From Gemmatimonadetes bacterium 2013_60CM_65_52 (GTDB lineage Bacteria > Gemmatimonadota > Gemmatimonadetes > Gemmatimonadales > Gemmatimonadaceae), in the NCBI GenBank assembly GCA_002215645.1, contig NGFI01000009.1, forward strand, positions 1-57,347: a DNA stretch of 57,347 bases, given 5' to 3'. The first letter of the stretch is position 1. Each line of letters starts with the position of its first letter. The notes under the pieces are model-generated. The model was given only the letters and a program-made list of their open reading frames with translations, had not been told where the DNA came from and did not search any database. Of the stretch, positions 1 through 57,347 are shown piece after piece. The translations under genes were made by a program, and so were the position numbers.

Positions 1-2024
1 CGTTGTTCGGGCACACCAATGCGATAGCCGCCGTGCGGCGTCGGCGTGAGATTCAGCACCACCACGGCAAAACCGTCATTGCCGCGGCGCAGATAGGAGA
101 GGACGGAATTGGCCCGATCGGCGACGTCGATCCACTCGAAGCCACGCGGCTCGCTGTCGAGCTGCCATAGCGCGGGATGCTCGCGGTAGACATGCCCCAG
201 GCGCGCGACATACGCCTGGAACGCTGCGCGATCGGGCCACTCGAGGAGATGCCACGGTAGCGACTCGTCGTGATTCCATTCCTCCGGCTGCGCCAGCTCG
301 CTGCCCATGAAGAGCAGGGATTTTCCGGGACGCGTAATCTGATACGCCAGCAGCGCCCGCAGATTGGCCATCCGTTGCCAATGGTCGCCCGGCATCTTGG
401 CGTAGAGCGACCCTTTCATGTGCACCATCTCGTCGTGCGAGAGCGGCATGATGAAATGCTCGCTGTGCTCGTAGATCATGGCGAACGTGAGCGAATCCTG
501 ATGGTAGCTTCGGAAAATGGGCGGGCGCTCGAAGTATTCGATGGTGTCGTGCATCCATCCCATGTTCCACTTGAACGTGAAGCCGAGGCCGCCCTCCTCG
601 ATCGGCCGGCTCACGCCCGGCCACGCCGTGGAATCCTCGGCGACGGTCATGCACCCCGGCGCGGCCGCATGGACGACGGCATTCATCTCGCGCAGAAAGT
701 CGATGGCCTCGAGATTCTCGCGGCCGCCGAACCGGTTGGGAACCCATTCGCCTTCCTTGCGGCTGTAATCGAGGTAGAGCATCGAGGCCACCGCGTCCAC
801 TCTCAACCCGTCCATGTGGAACTCGTTGAGCCAGTAGAGCGCGTTGTTGACGAGAAAGTTGCGGACTTCGCGACGCCCGTAGTTGAAGATCAGCGTGCCC
901 CAATCGGGATGTTCGCCGAGCCGAGCGTCCTCGTGCTCGTAGAGTGCCGTGCCGTCGAATCGGCGGAGCGCGTAATCGTCGCGAGGAAAATGCGCGGGCA
1001 CCCAGTCCAGCAACACACCGATTCCCGCGCCATGCAGGGTGTCCACGAGATAGCGGAGGTCGTCGGGCGACCCATAGCGTGACGTGGGAGCGAAGTATCC
1101 CGTGATCTGGTAGCCCCATGAGCCGTAGAACGGGTGCTCCATCACGGGCAGCAGCTCCACGTGCGTGAATCCCATGCGCGTCACGTACTCGGCGAGCCGC
1201 GGCGCGATCTCCCGATAGCTCAGGAACCGGTTGCCCTCCTCGGGCACGCGCGCCCACGATCCGAGATGGATTTCATAGATGTGGACCGGCTCCCTTACGT
1301 GGTCGCGGCCGGTCCGCGCCGACATCCACGCTCCATCGCGCCACCCGTACGTTCCTTCCGTGACCACGATGGAGGCCGTGCCCGGCGACTGCTGCATCTT
1401 GAGGCCCACCGGATCCGTCTTGATGCGCAGGTGCCCGTCCCGCGTTCGCAGCTCGTACTTGTAGAGGGCGTTCACACCCACTCCGGGGACGAACAGCTCC
1501 CACAGCCCGCTCGAGCCCATGCGGCGCATGGGGAACTGACGTCCATCCCAGTTGCACCAGTCCCCCACCACACTCACACGCTCCGCGTTCGGCGCCCATA
1601 CGGTGAACGACGCGCCTTCGTCGCCATCCACCGTGCGCAGGTGGGCGCCGAGCATGGTCCAGAGGCGACGATGCGTTCCCTCGTTGAAGAGGTGGAGATC
1701 CACGTCGCCGATCGTGGGGAGATGGCGATACGCATCGCCACGCTCCCACGTTCTGCCGTCCGATGCGATGAAGCGAAGGCCATAGCGTAGCGGCAGGCGT
1801 GCACCGGCAATCACAAGCGAGAAAAAACCACCCGATTCGTCGCGCATGGCCGTGCTGACACCATCGCGGATCACGAAGCAGTCCGCCGCCTCGGGCTGGT
1901 GAACGCGAATGATCACGCCAGACACGTCGCCCGCTTCGTACGGGTGCACGCCGAGCACCGAATGCGGATCGGCATGCCGCCCCTCCGCCAGGGCGCGTCG
2001 CGCGTCGGAGTCGAACGTCGTCAT
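1..2024 (-). CDS. glgB: 1,4-alpha-glucan branching enzyme, 3' end beyond window
   Basis: GlgB makes the alpha-1,6 branches of glycogen by cutting an alpha-1,4 chain and re-attaching it (GH13). The frame stays open from the ATG at 2024 to the left edge, giving 674 codons; the family runs to about 730, so only the C-terminal part of the all-beta domain is missing. Visible family landmarks are the N-terminal HADPHSVLGVHP stretch, the nucleophile Asp410 in GLRVDAVASMLYLDYSR, the acid/base Glu463 in TVAEDST, and the LPLSHDEMVH segment. The last visible residues (YRIGVP) match the C-terminal beta domain. The ATG overlaps the glgX stop codon as ATGA, so the two genes are translationally coupled. Confidence 0.97.
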   Translation of the reverse strand, partial: MTTFDSDARRALAEGRHADPHSVLGVHPYEAGDVSGVIIRVHQPEAADCFVIRDGVSTAMRDESGGFFSLVIAGARLPLRYGLRFIASDGRTWERGDAYRHLPTIGDVDLHLFNEGTHRRLWTMLGAHLRTVDGDEGASFTVWAPNAERVSVVGDWCNWDGRQFPMRRMGSSGLWELFVPGVGVNALYKYELRTRDGHLRIKTDPVGLKMQQSPGTASIVVTEGTYGWRDGAWMSARTGRDHVREPVHIYEIHLGSWARVPEEGNRFLSYREIAPRLAEYVTRMGFTHVELLPVMEHPFYGSWGYQITGYFAPTSRYGSPDDLRYLVDTLHGAGIGVLLDWVPAHFPRDDYALRRFDGTALYEHEDARLGEHPDWGTLIFNYGRREVRNFLVNNALYWLNEFHMDGLRVDAVASMLYLDYSRKEGEWVPNRFGGRENLEAIDFLREMNAVVHAAAPGCMTVAEDSTAWPGVSRPIEEGGLGFTFKWNMGWMHDTIEYFERPPIFRSYHQDSLTFAMIYEHSEHFIMPLSHDEMVHMKGSLYAKMPGDHWQRMANLRALLAYQITRPGKSLLFMGSELAQPEEWNHDESLPWHLLEWPDRAAFQAYVARLGHVYREHPALWQLDSEPRGFEWIDVADRANSVLSYLRRGNDGFAVVVLNLTPTPHGGYRIGVPEQ

Positions 2025-4201
2025 AGCGTGTGCTGTTCAGGGAGCGACAACCGCTCGCGCCGCGGCTGGTCGGCAACGTGGATCCGCCGATCCATTCCGT
2101 AACGCAGCAGCACCAGCGCATGCGCATCAATCGTGACGCTCAGCGCATGCTCCGGCGGCATGTCGTCGCGCGCCGAATTGAGCAGGATCACCCAGGTGTT
2201 CTCTCCTTCCAGGGCGGGCAGCGTGAAGGACACCGGTTCCGCGCCGGCGTTCATCAGGATGAGGAGCGTGTCGCCCAACACCGCATGGCCACGCTCGTCC
2301 ACTTCGTCGGTCGCCGCGCCGTCGATGAGCATGCCGAGCGCGTGCGCCTTCGCATCGCGCCAATCTACGTCCGTCAACTCCGTTCCGTCCGGCTTGAGCC
2401 ACGTCACGTCCTTGCGGTCCGAACCCGGAGGGGGCGCGCCACGGAAAAAGTGGCGGCGACGCAACACCGGATGCGCCTGTCGCATGGCAAAGAGCTTTCG
2501 CGTGAACGCCAGCAGCGCCGACGTGCCCTCATCGATCTCCCAATCCACCCAGGTGATCTCGTTGTCCTGCGCGTATGCGTTGTTGTTTCCCCCTTGTGTG
2601 CGCGCGATCTCGTCGCCGTGCGAGAGCATCGGCACGCCCTGCGAGAACGCGAGCGTCGCGAGCAGTGCCCGCGTGACGCGAATGCGCCGCTCGCGGATCA
2701 CCGGGTCGTCCGTGTCGCCCTCGACGCCCCAATTCCGGCTGAAATTCTCGTTGTGCCCGTCGCGATTGTCCTCGCCGTTGGCCTCATTGTGCTTCTGCTC
2801 GTAGCTCACCAGATCGCGGAGCGTGTAGCCATCGTGCGCCGTGATGAAGTTGATGCTCGCGTACACGCCACGATCGCTGCTCGAGAAGATGTCGCTGGAG
2901 CCCGCGAGCCGGCTTGCCAACTCGCCCACCTGTCCCGGGTCGCCGCGCCAGAAACGGCGCACGGCATCGCGATATTGCCCGTTCCATTCGGTCCAGCGCA
3001 GCGGAAAGTTGCCGGCCTGATAGCCCCCTGGCCCGACGTCCCATGGCTCCGCGATGAGCTTCACGCGCGCCAGCGTGGGATCCTGCTGCATGATGTCGAA
3101 GAACGCGGAGAGCTTGTCCACGTCGTAGAGCTCCCGGGCGAGCACCGGCGCGAGGTCGAAGCGAAAGCCATCCACGTGCATCTCGTCCACCCAATAGCGC
3201 AGCGAATCCATCACCAGCTGGATCGTGCGCGGATGCTGCATGTTGAGTGAGTTGCCCGTGCCCGTGAAATCGGTGTAGAACCGCTTGTTCTTTGCCTCCA
3301 GCCGGTAGTACGTCGCGTTGTCGATGCCCTTCAGCGACAGTGTCGGTCCCAGATGATTGCCCTCGCCGGTGTGGTTGTACACGACGTCGAGAATCACCTC
3401 GAGCCCCGCTGCGTGCAGGGTCTTCACCATGGTCTTGAACTCGTACACCTGGTTGCCGAGCCCGCGCGTGGCGTAGCGCACGTCGGGCGCAAAGAACCCG
3501 ATGGAGTTGTAGCCCCAGTAGTTGGTCAGGCCACGCTCGGCGAGGTGACGATCCACCACGAACTGATGCACGGGCAGCAGCTCGAGCGCCGTGACACCGA
3601 GAGTCTGGAAGTACTCGATCATCGGATCGCTGCAGAGGCCAAGGTACGTGCCCCGGAGCTGCGGCGGCACGTAGGGCTGCCGAATGGTCATGCCCTTCAC
3701 GTGGCACTCGTAGATGATCGTTCGGTTGTACGGGACGTTGAGCGGGCGGTCGTCTTCCCAGGTGAAGGCCGAGTCGATGACCACGGATTTCGGGACGCTG
3801 CCCGCGGAGTTGTCCGGATCGGGCTCCAGATCACTCTCACCGTCCACGCGATACGCGAACAGTGCGTTGCTCCATGTAATCGAGCCCGTGATCGCTTTCG
3901 CGTATGGGTCGATGAGCAGCTTCGCCGGATTGAAGCGATGTCCCTGCTCCGGCTCGTACGATCCGTGGACGCGATACCCGTAGAACTGCCCCGGGCGGAC
4001 ATCGGGCAGATAGCAGTGCCACACCTGGTCCGTGCGCTCCGTCAACCGGATCTTCGCGGACTCCGCGGCGTCATTCTCGTGCGCGAACAGGCACAGCTCC
4101 ACGCCGCTCGCGTGCTCGGAGAAGAGCGCGAAGTTGACGCCGGTCCCGTCCCACGAGGCTCCCAGTGGATAGGGACGGCCCGGCCAGATGCGCAGTGTCA
4201 T
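2021..4201 (-). CDS. glgX: glycogen debranching enzyme GlgX
   Basis: This GH13 isoamylase-type enzyme removes alpha-1,6 branches from partly degraded glycogen in the cytoplasm. The 726-aa protein has the N-terminal CBM48-like beta domain (about 8-110), then the TIM barrel with DVVYNHTGEGN (about 272-282), DGFRFDLAPVLAR with nucleophile Asp349, LIAEPWD with acid/base Glu385, and AHDGYTL with Asp457. The length fits the GlgX/TreX family. The start ATG at 4201 gives the usual N-terminus with G-x-PYPLGA. It sits 82 bp downstream of an HD-GYP gene and overlaps glgB by 4 bp, forming a glycogen-remodelling operon. Confidence 0.96.
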   Translation of the reverse strand: MTLRIWPGRPYPLGASWDGTGVNFALFSEHASGVELCLFAHENDAAESAKIRLTERTDQVWHCYLPDVRPGQFYGYRVHGSYEPEQGHRFNPAKLLIDPYAKAITGSITWSNALFAYRVDGESDLEPDPDNSAGSVPKSVVIDSAFTWEDDRPLNVPYNRTIIYECHVKGMTIRQPYVPPQLRGTYLGLCSDPMIEYFQTLGVTALELLPVHQFVVDRHLAERGLTNYWGYNSIGFFAPDVRYATRGLGNQVYEFKTMVKTLHAAGLEVILDVVYNHTGEGNHLGPTLSLKGIDNATYYRLEAKNKRFYTDFTGTGNSLNMQHPRTIQLVMDSLRYWVDEMHVDGFRFDLAPVLARELYDVDKLSAFFDIMQQDPTLARVKLIAEPWDVGPGGYQAGNFPLRWTEWNGQYRDAVRRFWRGDPGQVGELASRLAGSSDIFSSSDRGVYASINFITAHDGYTLRDLVSYEQKHNEANGEDNRDGHNENFSRNWGVEGDTDDPVIRERRIRVTRALLATLAFSQGVPMLSHGDEIARTQGGNNNAYAQDNEITWVDWEIDEGTSALLAFTRKLFAMRQAHPVLRRRHFFRGAPPPGSDRKDVTWLKPDGTELTDVDWRDAKAHALGMLIDGAATDEVDERGHAVLGDTLLILMNAGAEPVSFTLPALEGENTWVILLNSARDDMPPEHALSVTIDAHALVLLRYGMDRRIHVADQPRRERLSLPEQHTL

Positions 4202-4283
4202 CCGTTCATCATACTCGGCGTGCGAACGGCGCAGCCACCCTGCCGGCCGCGGTTCCGCAAGCGTACCGCAAGTACCGGCCCGC

Positions 4284-5474
4284 TCAGGCGGGCGTCGGCT
4301 CGCGGAGCTCGGCCAGGGTCGTCTGCTCGATACGGCCCTCCATGCGCCGCATCAGGTCCACGAATACTCCCGCGATGTCCGGGTCGAAATCAGTACCCGC
4401 ACCGTCCTCGATGTACTCGAGTACGCGCGCCGGTTCCCACGCCCCGCGGTAGGGCCGGTGCGTCCGCAGCGCGTCGTAGACGTCGCAGACGTGCACCAGG
4501 GCGCTCGCACAGTGGCACTCGCGGCGGACGTGGCGCGCGGGATACCCGCCGCCGTTGAGCATGATGTGATGCTCGAACGCCACTACGGCGGCGAGATCGA
4601 GTTGTTGCCCACTCGAGAGGATGAGCTTCGCCCCCTCCTTCGTGTGCCCCTGCATCACGGCGCGTTCGTCGTCGCTCAGCTTGCCCGGCTTGTTGAGGAT
4701 GTCCAGTGGAATGCGCGTCTTGCCGAGATCGTGTAACAACCCCGCCACGCCAAACGCGCGCACGTCCGCGGACGACATGCCCATGGCCTCCGCGAGTGCC
4801 ATCGTCAACACGCTCACGTTGAGCGAATGCGTCGTGGTGTACTCGTCGAATTCGCGCAGCGAGAGGAGCGGCAGCAGCATCTGCTGATCGCCGTGCATGG
4901 CGACCGCCAACGACCGCACCACGGATTCCGCCTCGAGCAGCGGCAGCAATCCGCGGTCGCCGACCTCGCCGTGCATCCATTGCACCGTCTCCACCTCGTC
5001 GCGCAGATCGTAACGGGTTCCGCGCGGTTGGCTCGCCTCCGACGACACGGCCGGCGTCGATCGTTGCTCGCCACGGATGCCGAGCGCGCCGAAGCGGATG
5101 GTGCTGCGCGGCGCCCCCGGCCGCGCTTCCGCGGTGTCGATGGTAGCAAGCGTAAGGCGCGCCACGACCTCCTCGAGAAACGTCTCGAAGTCATCGCGCG
5201 AAACGTCCGCGGCAAACTCGAGGCGCTGCACACCGGCGTTCGCGAGACGCGACGCCCATTCCCAGTCGCGCATCTCGCGAAGTGGACGCTCCGCGAACAC
5301 CACCTCGTCGCCGAGGAAGGAGAATTCGGGACGGGCGTCGTGCGCCTGGAGGTCGCGCAACAACCGGTACGCAGTGTCCACCGCGCGCGCCCGCGCGGGG
5401 TGCGATGGCGCGTACAGGGCCATCGTGGCAATGGACTGCGTGAAGGCGGTGAGAAAGCGGACGGGATCGCTCAT
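4284..5474 (-). CDS. HD-GYP domain phosphodiesterase-like protein
   Basis: The 396-aa protein joins an N-terminal domain (about 1-110) to a C-terminal HD-GYP domain (about 205-390). The predicted metal ligands are all present: His216, His248-Asp249 in LLHDLGK, His277 in QGHTKEGAKL, the His302-His303 pair and Asp331. The signature GYP reads GGGYP (308-312). HD-GYP proteins typically hydrolyse cyclic di-GMP; activity here is inferred. I chose the ATG at 5474 because it overlaps the upstream stop as ATGA, and longer in-frame starts lie inside the neighbouring gene. Its N-terminal domain resembles that of the upstream gene. The downstream genes are glgX and glgB. Confidence 0.88.
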   Translation of the reverse strand: MSDPVRFLTAFTQSIATMALYAPSHPARARAVDTAYRLLRDLQAHDARPEFSFLGDEVVFAERPLREMRDWEWASRLANAGVQRLEFAADVSRDDFETFLEEVVARLTLATIDTAEARPGAPRSTIRFGALGIRGEQRSTPAVSSEASQPRGTRYDLRDEVETVQWMHGEVGDRGLLPLLEAESVVRSLAVAMHGDQQMLLPLLSLREFDEYTTTHSLNVSVLTMALAEAMGMSSADVRAFGVAGLLHDLGKTRIPLDILNKPGKLSDDERAVMQGHTKEGAKLILSSGQQLDLAAVVAFEHHIMLNGGGYPARHVRRECHCASALVHVCDVYDALRTHRPYRGAWEPARVLEYIEDGAGTDFDPDIAGVFVDLMRRMEGRIEQTTLAELREPTPA

Positions 5475-7600
5475 TTGATTGCTTCCGTCCGCATAGTGAG
5501 CCGCTCGCCGCGCACGGCCGCACGCACCGTGGCGCTGGTGCTGGACCGTGCAAGCTCGAGGGCCGGCGTCGCACGTGAATCGCTTCCCCACCGCGCCGCA
5601 AGGACGTTGAGCGCCGCGAGCATCTCCGGCGACGTCGGGGTCAGCCGCGGCCGACGCAGCAGTCCGCCCGTGGTCATCGTGCGGCGGACGAGCCACTCGA
5701 CGCTCTGCTCATCGGACACACCCGCCACCGCGCGTACAGCGGCCACGAGCGCGGCGCTCTCCGTGATCTCGCCCCGATCGACGCGCAGCCTGATGGTGGA
5801 GGCAACCAGCGGCGGGCACCGCTCCTGCGCCGCCTGAAGGCCCGCCGCGACCACGCAAGCGTCGTCGTCCCGCACGGCCACGAGCATCGCCGCGTCGCGC
5901 GTCTCCTCGTACGAGAGCAGAAGCCTTGCCGCTTCGCGGCGGACGGCCGCGTCGCCGTGCGCGAGAAATGACCGTGCCTCGCCCGGTAGCTTTGCCGGAG
6001 CCATGCTTTTCAAACCGGCGAGCAGCTCACACACGATCGGCGGCGCAGCGGAGGCAAGCTGCGCGGCAACCGCCGGCGCGGCATCGGCCCCGAGCGAGAT
6101 GAGCGTCGCAATGAGACGATCGTGATGTGCGCCGGAGGGCAGCACGATGACCGCACGAACGAGCGCCGGCGCGCCGGCCGCGCCGAGGCGCATGGCTACA
6201 CGCCGAATCAGTTGGTGATCGAGCTTCGGCGCGACGAGCAGCGCGCCGAGCGGATCCGCCGCCGCGATGACGGTCCACAACTGCGACGAGATCTCCTCGC
6301 GTCCCGGAGGCGCTGTGTCGAGCACATCGAGCAGCTCCGCCAGTTGTCCTCGAGCGAGCGAGGCCGTCAACGCGCGCGTGACCGCATCGCCAGTAACGCC
6401 AAGCTCCAGCGCCATGAGAATCACGCGGGCCGGCTCGCAGGGAAATTGCGCCTCGTCGGGCGCAGTCGCGGGGTCAGCTCGCGACATGTGCTCCAGCGCC
6501 GCCGAATAGGCGAGCGGATTCGGGTCATCGAGCGACCACGAGCTCACCAGTCGTTCCACGTGCTCGCGAAATTCCTCGTCGGCCATGTTGCCGCGCCTGC
6601 CGGTGTCCTGCGCGGCGTGCGTTGCAAGCTTCGTCAGCATGCGCACGAGCGAGTGTGAGATCGTCTGGCCTTCCGCGTTGGCCGCCGCCTGCACCAGCTC
6701 CACCACCGCGTCCACGTTCATCCCCTGCGCGGCATCCAGCACGAACTTGCGCCGCTGTAGCGTGTCGCCGCCCATGTCGAGGAGACGGCGCAGCGTCGCC
6801 GGCTGCAGCGAGCCCACGAGCTTCGAGATCCTGCGCTTCAACCCGGCGCTCGCCTGCACCTGCGTGTCGTCGTGCCGCACTTCGTGCGCGATCTGGAGCA
6901 GGTAGCCGACGATCACCTGGTCGTACGCGGGCTCGCGATCGTGGTCGTCGATGGCCTTGGCAACGTGCTCCGGCTCGAGCTCACCGTCGGATTGGGAGCG
7001 CCCCTGCTCGGACGCGATGGCCGCACGCGCGAGGCCGACCCAGAGCTGCGCCGCGCGCGTGTCTCGTCCGCCGGGCGGCCGAGCTGATCCGTCTTCGTCT
7101 GCCGCCTCCTCCTCATCGAGCAACTCGAGCCGGTCGTACGTGAGCGGAAAGAGCTTGACGTTGACCCAGAGCGAATCGAGAATTTCCGGTTGCATGCCGA
7201 GCGGCTTTTCATCGCGCTGCGCTTCGATGCCCACGCGTTCGAGTGCCGACGCGAGCTCGTCGCGCGAGATGCCGCGGAGGAACTTCAGCGCGCCGATGTG
7301 GTGCCGGTGGAGCTTGCCCGCCAGCTCGCTGAGCAGCGGATGCAGCGCGCCCGTGGCCACGCCTTCGATGATGAGCTGGCGTCGCGCGACGCCAATGGAG
7401 AGCGCGGGACGTTCGACGAGCAGCCGGATCAGCGAGTCGTGGACCGCCTCCACCGACTGGGTGAGTAGCGGATGCCCGTGCGGGTAGATGGCATGCTTGT
7501 GCATGGCCACCGAGAGCTCCACCAGGAACTCGGACAATTCCTGAGAGAGCCGGGGCGTTTGCGCGTCGGCGCTGGCTGAACGAGGATCGGCATCGATCAC
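5471..7600 (-). CDS. large HEAT-like repeat protein paired with the HD-GYP protein
   Basis: I do not recognise a named family. The 709-aa cytoplasmic protein starts at a GTG (7600). Residues about 20-130 look like the N-terminal domain of the HD-GYP protein encoded next: both share a FLxxx core, a YPHGHP/YAPSHP turn, an alpha/beta stretch and an ISRDEL/VSRDDF segment ending in ALERV/FLEEV. A Glu/Asp-rich linker follows at about 160-170. The rest is alanine- and leucine-rich helical sequence with HEAT-like units, for example AVRREAARLLLSYE. A role as scaffold or regulator of the HD-GYP protein is inferred from the 4-bp overlap and the shared domain. Confidence 0.75.
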   Translation of the reverse strand: MIDADPRSASADAQTPRLSQELSEFLVELSVAMHKHAIYPHGHPLLTQSVEAVHDSLIRLLVERPALSIGVARRQLIIEGVATGALHPLLSELAGKLHRHHIGALKFLRGISRDELASALERVGIEAQRDEKPLGMQPEILDSLWVNVKLFPLTYDRLELLDEEEAADEDGSARPPGGRDTRAAQLWVGLARAAIASEQGRSQSDGELEPEHVAKAIDDHDREPAYDQVIVGYLLQIAHEVRHDDTQVQASAGLKRRISKLVGSLQPATLRRLLDMGGDTLQRRKFVLDAAQGMNVDAVVELVQAAANAEGQTISHSLVRMLTKLATHAAQDTGRRGNMADEEFREHVERLVSSWSLDDPNPLAYSAALEHMSRADPATAPDEAQFPCEPARVILMALELGVTGDAVTRALTASLARGQLAELLDVLDTAPPGREEISSQLWTVIAAADPLGALLVAPKLDHQLIRRVAMRLGAAGAPALVRAVIVLPSGAHHDRLIATLISLGADAAPAVAAQLASAAPPIVCELLAGLKSMAPAKLPGEARSFLAHGDAAVRREAARLLLSYEETRDAAMLVAVRDDDACVVAAGLQAAQERCPPLVASTIRLRVDRGEITESAALVAAVRAVAGVSDEQSVEWLVRRTMTTGGLLRRPRLTPTSPEMLAALNVLAARWGSDSRATPALELARSSTSATVRAAVRGERLTMRTEAIK

Positions 7601-54782: not shown

Positions 54783-55340
54783 ATGCGCCTTCGTTTCCTC
54801 ACCGCGGCCGCGCTAGCGCTTCCTATGGCGCTCGCCGCACAGACCACAAACAACGTCACCGCTTCGTTCAAGGCCAGCAGCGCGCGCTACGGCGGATGGC
54901 TCGCGGCGGCGTTCGACTCCATTCCCGCCAGCAAGTACAGCTACAAACCCACGCCAGTGCAGCAGACGATCGGGTACGTCGCCCAGCATCTCGAGGCCGC
55001 GAATTACGGACTGTGCGGCGGCTTTGGCGCCGTGAAGCGCACGCCAACGGCCAAGGATTCTCTCGCGGATACGATCAAGGCCATGTGGCCCAAGGATACG
55101 CTCGTCGCCCGACTCAAGGCGTCGCTGGCGTTCTGTGACAACGCGTTGGCCAGCGTCGACGATGCACGCCTGGGTGAAGAGCTACCGACCGGCCCTCCGG
55201 GCTCCGGGCGCACAGTCCCACGGGCGCGATTCATGATTGGGTATGTCACGGATCTCGCTGAGCACTATGCGCAGATCGCGAGCTATATGCGCATCATCGG
55301 GCTGGTTCCGCCCTCGGCCCTGCCGCGACCGGGTCGTTAG
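54783..55340 (+). CDS. exported DinB-like protein
   Basis: The 185-aa protein has GGAG 7 nt before its ATG and a signal peptide (LTAAALALPMALAA-Q), then a DinB-like helical bundle: IGYVAQHLEAANYGLCGGFG and the closing TDLAEHYAQIASYMRIIGLVPP, with His residues at the usual places. Export is unusual for this mostly cytoplasmic family, though it recurs in Gemmatimonadota-like genomes. A strong hairpin follows the gene. Confidence 0.82.
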   Translation: MRLRFLTAAALALPMALAAQTTNNVTASFKASSARYGGWLAAAFDSIPASKYSYKPTPVQQTIGYVAQHLEAANYGLCGGFGAVKRTPTAKDSLADTIKAMWPKDTLVARLKASLAFCDNALASVDDARLGEELPTGPPGSGRTVPRARFMIGYVTDLAEHYAQIASYMRIIGLVPPSALPRPGR

Positions 55341-55473: not shown

Positions 55474-55797
55474 ATGCGGCGCCGAACCGCACGTGGACGC
55501 GCACCCAGAGCGCCCATGGCAAGGCTACCACCGCGAGGATCGCGTGCCGGCCACGCCCAAAGCGTGATCACATGCGCGCGGCCCAACGGCACGGTTCTCG
55601 TCGACGTCCGCGCGGGCCGGCGTGTTTCGCTCGACGTGTTTGGTACCCGTGTCTGGAACCAGCTCGTGCTGGAGCCAACGCTAGGGGCACTCGTCTCCAG
55701 GTTGCACGACGACGGCTCCTCGGCGGAGCGCCTCGCCGAGGACGTCGTCCGACTGCTTTCGGCCTGGCGCAGGATGGGGATGATCGAATGGCGGTGA
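55474..55797 (+). CDS. PqqD-family RiPP recognition protein, first copy
   Basis: A PqqD-like domain (RiPP recognition element) occupies the last 80 or so residues: LVDVRAGRRVSLDVFGTRVWNQL, then ALVSRLHDDGSSAERLAEDVVRLLSAWRRMGMIEW. Such proteins bind the leader of a precursor peptide and pass it to the modifying enzymes. The start is uncertain; the ATG at 55516 would drop an Arg-rich N-terminus and may be the true one. It overlaps the regulator gene by 10 bp and belongs to the lasso-type cluster at the right edge. Confidence 0.78.
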   Translation: MRRRTARGRAPRAPMARLPPRGSRAGHAQSVITCARPNGTVLVDVRAGRRVSLDVFGTRVWNQLVLEPTLGALVSRLHDDGSSAERLAEDVVRLLSAWRRMGMIEWR

Positions 55798-56606
55798 CAG
55801 ACGTTCCCCACGAGCGATCGCTGAGGGTCGGAGTGCTGACCGGAGCCGGCAATCACGAAGACGTCGTGCAGCAGCTCTCTCCATTGGGTGCAGTCGAATG
55901 GTGCGAGCGAACAGATGCACTGCTGGGCGCGGCGGCTGGGGGACGGTTCGACGCGGTCGTCACGGGCCCCGAGAATGAGGACGGCCGTTCGATTGCGGCA
56001 ACGCTGGTCGATCTCGCCGCACTCTGCCCCGCTCTACCGGTTGTAATTCACTCCCGGGTCAATCTCGCCACGATCGAGAAGCTCATTGGGGTGATGGCGG
56101 TAGGCATGCGTACGGAGTGCGTCGTCCGTCCCTTTGCGCGCATCGAGCCTGTGCTTCGACACCTGTGTTCCCCAGCATATCGTCCCAGCGCGGTGCCCCT
56201 GTTGCTGCATCACGTGATGCCGGTCGTACCGACAGTGCTGAGGGTGTTCGTCGCATTGGCCATTCTCACGGCGGCCACGCGCCGCGGAGTCGACGAGCTC
56301 GCGCGATGGAGCGGAAGCTCCCCGCGCACCATCGAGCGACGATTGCGGAGTGAGCATTGGCCCGGCGCCCACGTCGTACTGCGCTCGTTCATCGCGCTGG
56401 ACGCCCTCTGGTTGATGACGGAGTACGGCTGGTCTGCACGTCGCGTACAGGTCGTGCGCGGTTTCTCCCATCCGAGCGGCGTGACGCGACTGCTGTCGAC
56501 GTATGCCGGCACTCGACCGTCGACGCTCAATGACGATGGCGGATTCGCCGCAGCACTCGATCACGTCATGGGAGTCGTGCTCGGCCGATCCAGCGCTGGG
56601 GGCTAA
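55788..56606 (+). CDS. pseudo-receiver/AraC-like transcriptional regulator in the RiPP cluster
   Basis: The 272-aa protein has an N-terminal alpha/beta domain (about 9-125) shaped like a response-regulator receiver (RVGVLTGAGNHEDVV, FDAVVTGPENEDG, LPVVIHSRVN) but without a clear phospho-acceptor Asp. The C-terminal half carries an AraC-like double helix-turn-helix: VDELARWSGSSPRTIERRLRSE and VQVVRGFSHPSGVTRLLSTYAGTRPS. It is translated from an ATG inside the end of the first pqqD-like gene, so it is co-regulated with the RiPP genes and probably controls them. Confidence 0.72.
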   Translation: MAVTDVPHERSLRVGVLTGAGNHEDVVQQLSPLGAVEWCERTDALLGAAAGGRFDAVVTGPENEDGRSIAATLVDLAALCPALPVVIHSRVNLATIEKLIGVMAVGMRTECVVRPFARIEPVLRHLCSPAYRPSAVPLLLHHVMPVVPTVLRVFVALAILTAATRRGVDELARWSGSSPRTIERRLRSEHWPGAHVVLRSFIALDALWLMTEYGWSARRVQVVRGFSHPSGVTRLLSTYAGTRPSTLNDDGGFAAALDHVMGVVLGRSSAGG

Positions 56607-56699
56607 GACGGTCGCGCCATAGCAAGTCTGTCGCTTTTCAGCGATGCCCTGACGGCACTCGTCGCGCCACACTCCCTGGGTATACGGGAGGCTCAGCGC

Positions 56700-57029
56700 A
56701 TGCCAGTGAGTTTTCTCTCAAGGAAGTCGACTACCGATCTGACGTGCTGCCGCTTTCGCCGGTCGCCGCGCGTACTCGTCACGCTGCAGGCCGACGAAGC
56801 CGTTCTGTTCGATACCGTGAGAGACCGATACTTCACGCTCAACGGCGTCGGAACCTGCGTATGGGCATCACTGGAGCAGCCGTCCACGCTCGCGGATCTC
56901 GTCGCCGTGGTTTGTCGTGACTATGACGTTCCGCGCGAGGATCGGGATGGTCGCGTGTCGCGCGACGTCAGCGACCTCCTTGGCCAGCTCAATGCGGCGG
57001 GTCTCATCGTGGCCGAGCCGATCACGTGA
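56700..57029 (+). CDS. PqqD-family RiPP recognition protein, second copy (lasso B1-like)
   Basis: The 109-aa protein has the PqqD fold: VTLQADEAVLFDTVRDRYFTLNGVGTCVWASL, then LADLVAVVCRDYDVPREDRDGRVSRDVSDLLGQLNAAGLIV. This is the B1 (leader-binding) type found beside lasso B2 peptidases. A good GGGAGG ribosome site lies 8 nt before the ATG. The stop overlaps the start of the B2 gene as GTGA, which strongly ties the two together. Confidence 0.88.
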   Translation: MPVSFLSRKSTTDLTCCRFRRSPRVLVTLQADEAVLFDTVRDRYFTLNGVGTCVWASLEQPSTLADLVAVVCRDYDVPREDRDGRVSRDVSDLLGQLNAAGLIVAEPIT

Positions 57030-57347
57030 CGTTTACCAACGGAGCGTTCGCGGTGGGGCGCGCGATGCTGCTGATCGCGTTACTGAAGCTTGCGCTTGCC
57101 ATTGGAGGATTCGAGCGGACCTGGAGCTGGATCCGGCGACGCGCTCAGGTGATCGAAGTCGCGGCGGATGTGGAGACGACGACTGTTGAACGCCTCGAGC
57201 ACACCGTGGCGATGGCAGCGGCGCTCTATCCGGGGCGCGCACAGTGTCTCGAGCGATCGCTCCTGCTCTACTGGTGTCTTCGCCGCCGGGGGATCGTGGC
57301 GCATTACCGCATGGGCGTGCAGTCGTACCCGTTTCTCGCACACGCCT
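57026..57347 (+). CDS. lasso peptide biosynthesis B2 protein (leader peptidase), 5' part
   Basis: The frame runs from a GTG at 57026 off the right edge; 107 residues are visible. A hydrophobic N-terminal helix (about 9-28) is followed by the transglutaminase-like Cys motif LYPGRAQCLERSLLLYWCLRRRGI, with catalytic Cys74, and by the start of the GVQSYPFLAHA His motif (His106). B2 proteins remove the leader of lasso precursors in an ATP-assisted complex with B1. The final C-terminal residues and any cyclase gene lie outside the window. Confidence 0.88.
   Translation, partial: MTFTNGAFAVGRAMLLIALLKLALAIGGFERTWSWIRRRAQVIEVAADVETTTVERLEHTVAMAAALYPGRAQCLERSLLLYWCLRRRGIVAHYRMGVQSYPFLAHA

Follow-up and report, generated by a model that had tools for sequence, protein, structure and literature searches.

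A second, altered RRE-fold gene beside a regulator in an isopeptidase-class lasso-peptide cluster of an uncultured Gemmatimonadota bacterium

Why should one lasso-peptide operon carry two proteins with the leader-recognising RRE fold? What is unusual about the locus described here is that this fold is present again, in altered form, in one operon with a transcription regulator. The locus ends the window, a 57,347-nucleotide stretch that is the whole of contig C4 in the 14-contig, 4.2 Mb assembly of an uncultured Gemmatimonadota bacterium. The initial annotation placed four genes between 55474 and 57347, in the order PqqD1 (the extra RRE-fold protein), REG (the regulator), PqqD2 (a B1-type RRE) and B2 (the leader peptidase), and all four ORFs are present (Table 1), as are the claimed overlaps of 10 bp between PqqD1 and REG (55788-55797) and of 4 bp between PqqD2 and B2 (GTGA, 57026-57029). 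Two details need correction: the first gene could start at 55474, but 55516 is the likelier start, and B2 is truncated by the contig end, not by biology. A promoter and terminator scan returned a single weak promoter match, within REG, and no terminator. Just upstream, outside the cluster, is a DinB-family gene (54783-55337; PF12867, 3.4e-7).

Table 1. Features of the locus in the window and in the joined C4-C5 reading
Feature	Coordinates	Strand	Remarks
PqqD1	55516..55797	+	divergent lasso-type RRE; PF05402 E 1e-6
REG	55788..56606	+	pseudo-receiver + AraC-type HTH; HTH_18 weak, E 7e-4
PqqD2	56700..57029	+	canonical B1 (RRE); PF05402 E 4.7e-15, NF033530 E 1e-11
B2 leader peptidase	57026..57347, to 57430 joined	+	PF13471 E 4.9e-23
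Assembly overlap, 82 bp	57266..57347	.	exact match to C5:179176-179257, minus strand
Cyclase	57427-59298 (joined)		ATGA overlap with B2
Precursor A1	59350-59490 (joined)		leader MSKIYAAPKLVAKGDVMQTTK / core AAGGGSGD PIDTLQSLTPGSVGFGL; cleavage site predicted from sequence
Precursor A2	59580-59726 (joined)		leader MQKNYAAPKLTAKGSVLEITK / core AVAEGMGD PGESLALQARPVGAVGFGL; cleavage site predicted from sequence
S9 isopeptidase-like	59799-62309 (joined)	minus
SusD-looking lipoprotein	62254-63615 (joined)	minus	label from position and appearance
SusC-type TonB receptor	63619-67131 (joined)	minus
FecR	66966-67943 (joined)	minus
ECF sigma	68033-68710 (joined)	minus

The terminal 82 bp of C4 recur, as the reverse complement, at the end of contig C5 and nowhere else in the genome. 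Reading across this junction supplies the rest of B2, which then scores 90.7 bits against NF033537 (cut-off 33) and contains the Cys and the HAWIE motif, and it adds the cyclase, precursors A1 and A2, the isopeptidase, SusC, FecR and the sigma factor. The initial annotation had called the locus lasso-type and proposed looking to the right for a cyclase and small precursor genes; both are found on C5, with the cyclase and two precursors no more than 2.4 kb downstream. Because the cyclase half lies on a separate contig, linkage of the cluster depends on the overlap plus synteny. The assembler did keep C4 and C5 separate, and were the join wrong, the window would hold only an orphan B1-B2 fragment; we judge this extremely improbable, since the overlap is exact and unique in the genome, B2 reads on through the junction, the cyclase is ATGA-coupled to B2, and three relatives (G104, G025 and G107) carry B2-C, isopeptidase, TonB receptor, FecR and sigma factor in identical order. 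The SusD-looking gene has no match in the clusters of these three relatives and no Pfam match.

With the joined contig supplying an Asn-synthetase-like cyclase (PF00733, 2.3e-33; 166 bits, under the NCBIfam cut-off of 525), the locus has a B1 RRE, a B2 peptidase and a cyclase, the biosynthetic set of a lasso cluster. It also has an S9 isopeptidase-like peptidase, which matches family NF033523 (1.4e-40) at 140 bits, under the cut-off of 400, together with a TonB receptor and a FecI/FecR pair; the TonB plug, FecR and ECF sigma domains of these uptake and signalling genes on C5 were all identified. No GntR-like regulator precedes the precursor genes, and REG is the sole regulator between PqqD1 and the precursors. 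It is well supported that the window ends in the 5' part of a lasso-peptide cluster of the isopeptidase class, and the joined cluster appears to serve the synthesis, import and breakdown of two lasso peptides.

The isopeptidase clusters of Proteobacteria (astexin, sphingopyxin, benenodin; PMC9266682) share A, B, C and the S9 isopeptidase with this one, as well as the TonB receptor and the sigma/anti-sigma pair, and, as in those clusters, no ABC transporter is found among the annotated ORFs. The Gemmatimonadota cluster differs from them in having REG before B1 instead of GntR before the precursor, precursors located 3' of the cyclase, a SusC-type receptor beside a SusD-looking lipoprotein, and the extra RRE-fold PqqD1. 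A member of another family in this phylum also has a close SusC/SusD-like pair, by a different lasso cluster (L100 in G186, 1187-5648). Elsewhere on C5 (L173, C5:99020-118920) a further, weaker B2-like ORF accompanies an S9 peptidase-like ORF, with no PqqD or cyclase match in that stretch. Two tandem isopeptidase-like genes adjoin a single lasso cluster in each of L203 (G415), L075 and L080, and an S9-type peptidase ORF of ~1,100 aa, which may be a divergent isopeptidase, lies about equally far from many other lasso clusters (L090, L092, L095, L108, L113, L115, L116, L121, L127, L131, L162 and L201).

Both precursors have the marks of lasso precursors: a YxxP leader (YAAP in each), Thr at -2 (in T-K) and an acidic residue in the 7-9 range (Asp8). 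Their leaders are almost identical, conforming to YAAPKLxAKGxVxxxTK. Among 11 precursors of REG-type clusters (ORFs from L097, L202, L203, L103, L125, L091 and L077), the Y..P motif recurs, the stretch from Tyr to T-K/R is fixed at 17 residues, core position 8 is Asp or Glu, and the end is Phe-x-Leu. Cleavage of A1 elsewhere, for example before GGSGD, was considered and set aside, as a cut at T-K/R keeps Asp/Glu8 in 11/11 precursors. Residue 1 of the predicted cores is A, A, H, Q, V, N, V, M, L, A and I, with Gly in none of them. Experimentally observed first residues are Gly, Cys, Ser and Ala, to which metanodin adds Asn (PMC12670498); Leu1 is mentioned in a citrulassin paper (PMC12971885). 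Metanodin is alike in its metagenomic origin, in the isopeptidase gene of its lasso cluster and in a residue 1 other than Gly; it is gammaproteobacterial with a larger ring, whereas here a varied non-Gly residue 1 is clade-wide and 8-residue rings are predicted.

By analogy with known families, the YxxP leaders of A1 and A2 would be bound by PqqD2, B2 would cleave the precursors after T-K, and the Asn-synthetase-like C protein would close an 8-residue ring from the core's first amine to Asp8. The peptide would then be imported, and its presence signalled, via the SusC-type TonB receptor and the FecI/FecR-like pair, and the S9 peptidase would open the ring as in astexin-type clusters.

Where, then, do the regulator and the extra RRE belong? 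The AlphaFold2 (AF2) model of REG (pLDDT 88.8) shows a five-strand receiver fold followed by a helical AraC-type half, and its receiver superposes on Spo0F (6ifh) with Z 15.4 over 115 aa at 2.1 Å; a sequence search of the PDB gave no credible match. The initial annotation had described a regulator devoid of a phospho-acceptor Asp, and this is borne out: strand 3 ends in T59-G60, with no Asp there, and REG has the predicted fold of a phosphorylated response regulator without its phosphorylation site. RitR and CosR are atypical orphan response regulators that act independently of phosphorylation. REG shares with them the receiver fold (5u8k, Z 14.3; 8uvx, Z 14.2) and a DNA-binding C-terminal half, and differs in the AraC type of that half and in its lasso-cluster setting. 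Nor is REG a plain housekeeping AraC protein, as its near relatives (counted as E < 1e-15 plus lasso genes on their own contig) lie in lasso loci. Every member of the REG clade (n=6) is in a lasso cluster, and a contig scan with the REG alignment returned only four loci, none beyond those already found. Of 11 lasso clusters with a strong isopeptidase, 8 have REG nearby, as do 4 of the 72 that lack a strong one (Fisher p 1.8e-6, in a test that ignores genome relatedness). In this analysis, REG-type regulators in lasso clusters were seen in Gemmatimonadota only. From its position close to the start of the biosynthetic operon, we infer that REG would be a phosphorylation-independent DNA-binding protein standing in GntR's place.

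PqqD1 overlaps REG, and we accept it as a real gene because its third-position GC is coding-type (0.78-0.82, against a non-coding 0.49 for the overlapping extension of the REG frame) and because it has orthologues in two other genomes, G396 (46%) and G107 (36%). Its frame is open in all three genomes at 31-46% identity, each with the order PqqD1-REG-PqqD2-B2-C, and PqqD1 directly precedes REG every time. Here the two overlap by 10 bp; in G107 the ATG of REG comes 13 bp after PqqD1, and in G396 REG's first in-frame ATG comes 24 bp after it. A sequence search with PqqD1 by itself reached TbiB1 at no better than E 1.2, and fold comparison was therefore used. The AF2 model (pLDDT 86.4), whose input alignment contained B1s, has a winged-helix RRE fold, and its best solved match is again TbiB1 (5v1v; Z 13.9, 1.6 Å, 85 residues), with FusB1/TfuB1 (6jx3) at Z 13.1.

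The groove tells a different story from the fold. In PbaB1 the leader is held by Y38, Y69, V71 and L87 (PMC13381572). Of 115 B1s, 106 have Tyr at position 38, 111 have an aromatic residue (Tyr, Phe or Trp) at 69, and 99 have Leu at 87, where Trp does not occur. PqqD2 keeps the equivalents of all four residues, in line with TbiB1, FusB1/TfuB1 and PbaB1 (9x90). The three PqqD1s have R, A and G at position 38, no aromatic residue at 69 and no V71, and all have Trp at 87, which leaves them, unlike those discrete lasso RREs, with no Tyr-pocket aromatic and with a Trp in the Leu pocket; a leader-binding groove of the B1 kind is not seen. They also have a Trp-Arg end in common and cluster separately from 14 B1s in a tree (support 98/95, with a long branch within the PqqD1 clade and a bootstrap that had not settled). 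PqqD1 does not look like a second B1: the lasso RRE fold is modelled, and the groove is altered.

These residues bear directly on the proposal in the initial annotation that two RREs serve two precursors, which the comparison does not uphold. The genome studied here does combine two PqqDs with two precursors. Yet the two leaders are nearly identical, PqqD1 is devoid of Y38, the aromatic residue at 69 and L87, and the correlation breaks both ways, with two precursors and one PqqD in G199 and G414, and one precursor and two PqqDs in G107. Two precursors thus do not require two RREs, and several other single-PqqD clusters have two or three precursor-like ORFs. We consider two functional B1s, one per precursor, very unlikely. 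Of 395 genomes sampled from the phylum, 120 contain family NF033537. Among the 83 clusters that have both B2 and a cyclase, the number of PqqDs in range is one in 72, two in six, three in one and zero in four. Where the extra PqqD is not associated with REG, it lies beside a second lasso gene set (L158 and L094) or is a PqqD-like domain within a longer protein (L065, 10552-13953; L067, 12563-13966). The L065 and L067 lasso clusters have their own B1 besides.

Could PqqD1 instead be a functionless leftover of a B1 duplication, retained by chance before REG? Its divergence at the leader groove would fit, as would the failure to find it upstream of REG in G025 and G104, both of which keep REG. 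The REG tree places the present genome and G396 beside G107 and the pair G025 and G104, for which reason loss of PqqD1 in those two would be the simplest history, and REG would not always depend on PqqD1. On the other hand, a dead copy is unlikely to have kept Trp87 and the Trp-Arg end in common, or an open frame in three genomes with coding-type GC, and we find this explanation doubtful. A target other than the lasso leader, such as another RiPP precursor or the isopeptidase's linear product, is also conceivable, as RRE folds with changed grooves are known to serve other RiPP classes. Co-localised RREs can tell leaders apart (PMC13381572). No second RiPP enzyme is seen in the operon, however, and PqqD1 sits immediately before REG in 3/3 cases; we think such a target unlikely. 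The LppB/PbaB1 pair of Bacillota likewise places two RREs side by side in a single host, and there they serve two RiPP pathways (PMC13381572), whereas the two described here share a single lasso operon, and one of them appears coupled to a regulator.

The reading that we favour, on the position of the genes, is that PqqD1 acts with REG. PqqD1 would be an old B1 paralogue that has kept the RRE fold and changed its groove, a partner of REG and not a maturation RRE, perhaps responsive to leader or peptide. The overall picture of an isopeptidase-class lasso cluster in which REG replaces GntR and an altered B1 paralogue works with it is one that we hold to be probable. A more specific proposal, which we advance only tentatively and with more doubt than belief, is that PqqD1 is an RRE turned signalling subunit that binds leader, precursor or opened peptide and controls REG; were this so, the cluster would sense its own precursor or product. 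Our literature searches found lasso peptides and Gemmatimonadetes together in five papers, neither term being in any of their titles, listed no paper that pairs lasso peptides with Gemmatimonadota, and, for RRE, regulator and autoregulation in a lasso context, gave nothing that seemed relevant from title and abstract.

The purpose of isopeptidase-containing lasso peptides is still an open question (PMC9266682). With a regulator family to itself, a regulator-coupled RRE-fold gene and predicted non-Gly-1 cores, this clade offers a defined system for studying the sensing and recycling of such a peptide by the cell, and for learning whether an RRE can work in regulation rather than maturation. REG's broad family has more pseudo-receiver/AraC-type members within a few kb of lasso clusters, at L003 (5816-6703, on C5), L091, L097, L202 and L180.
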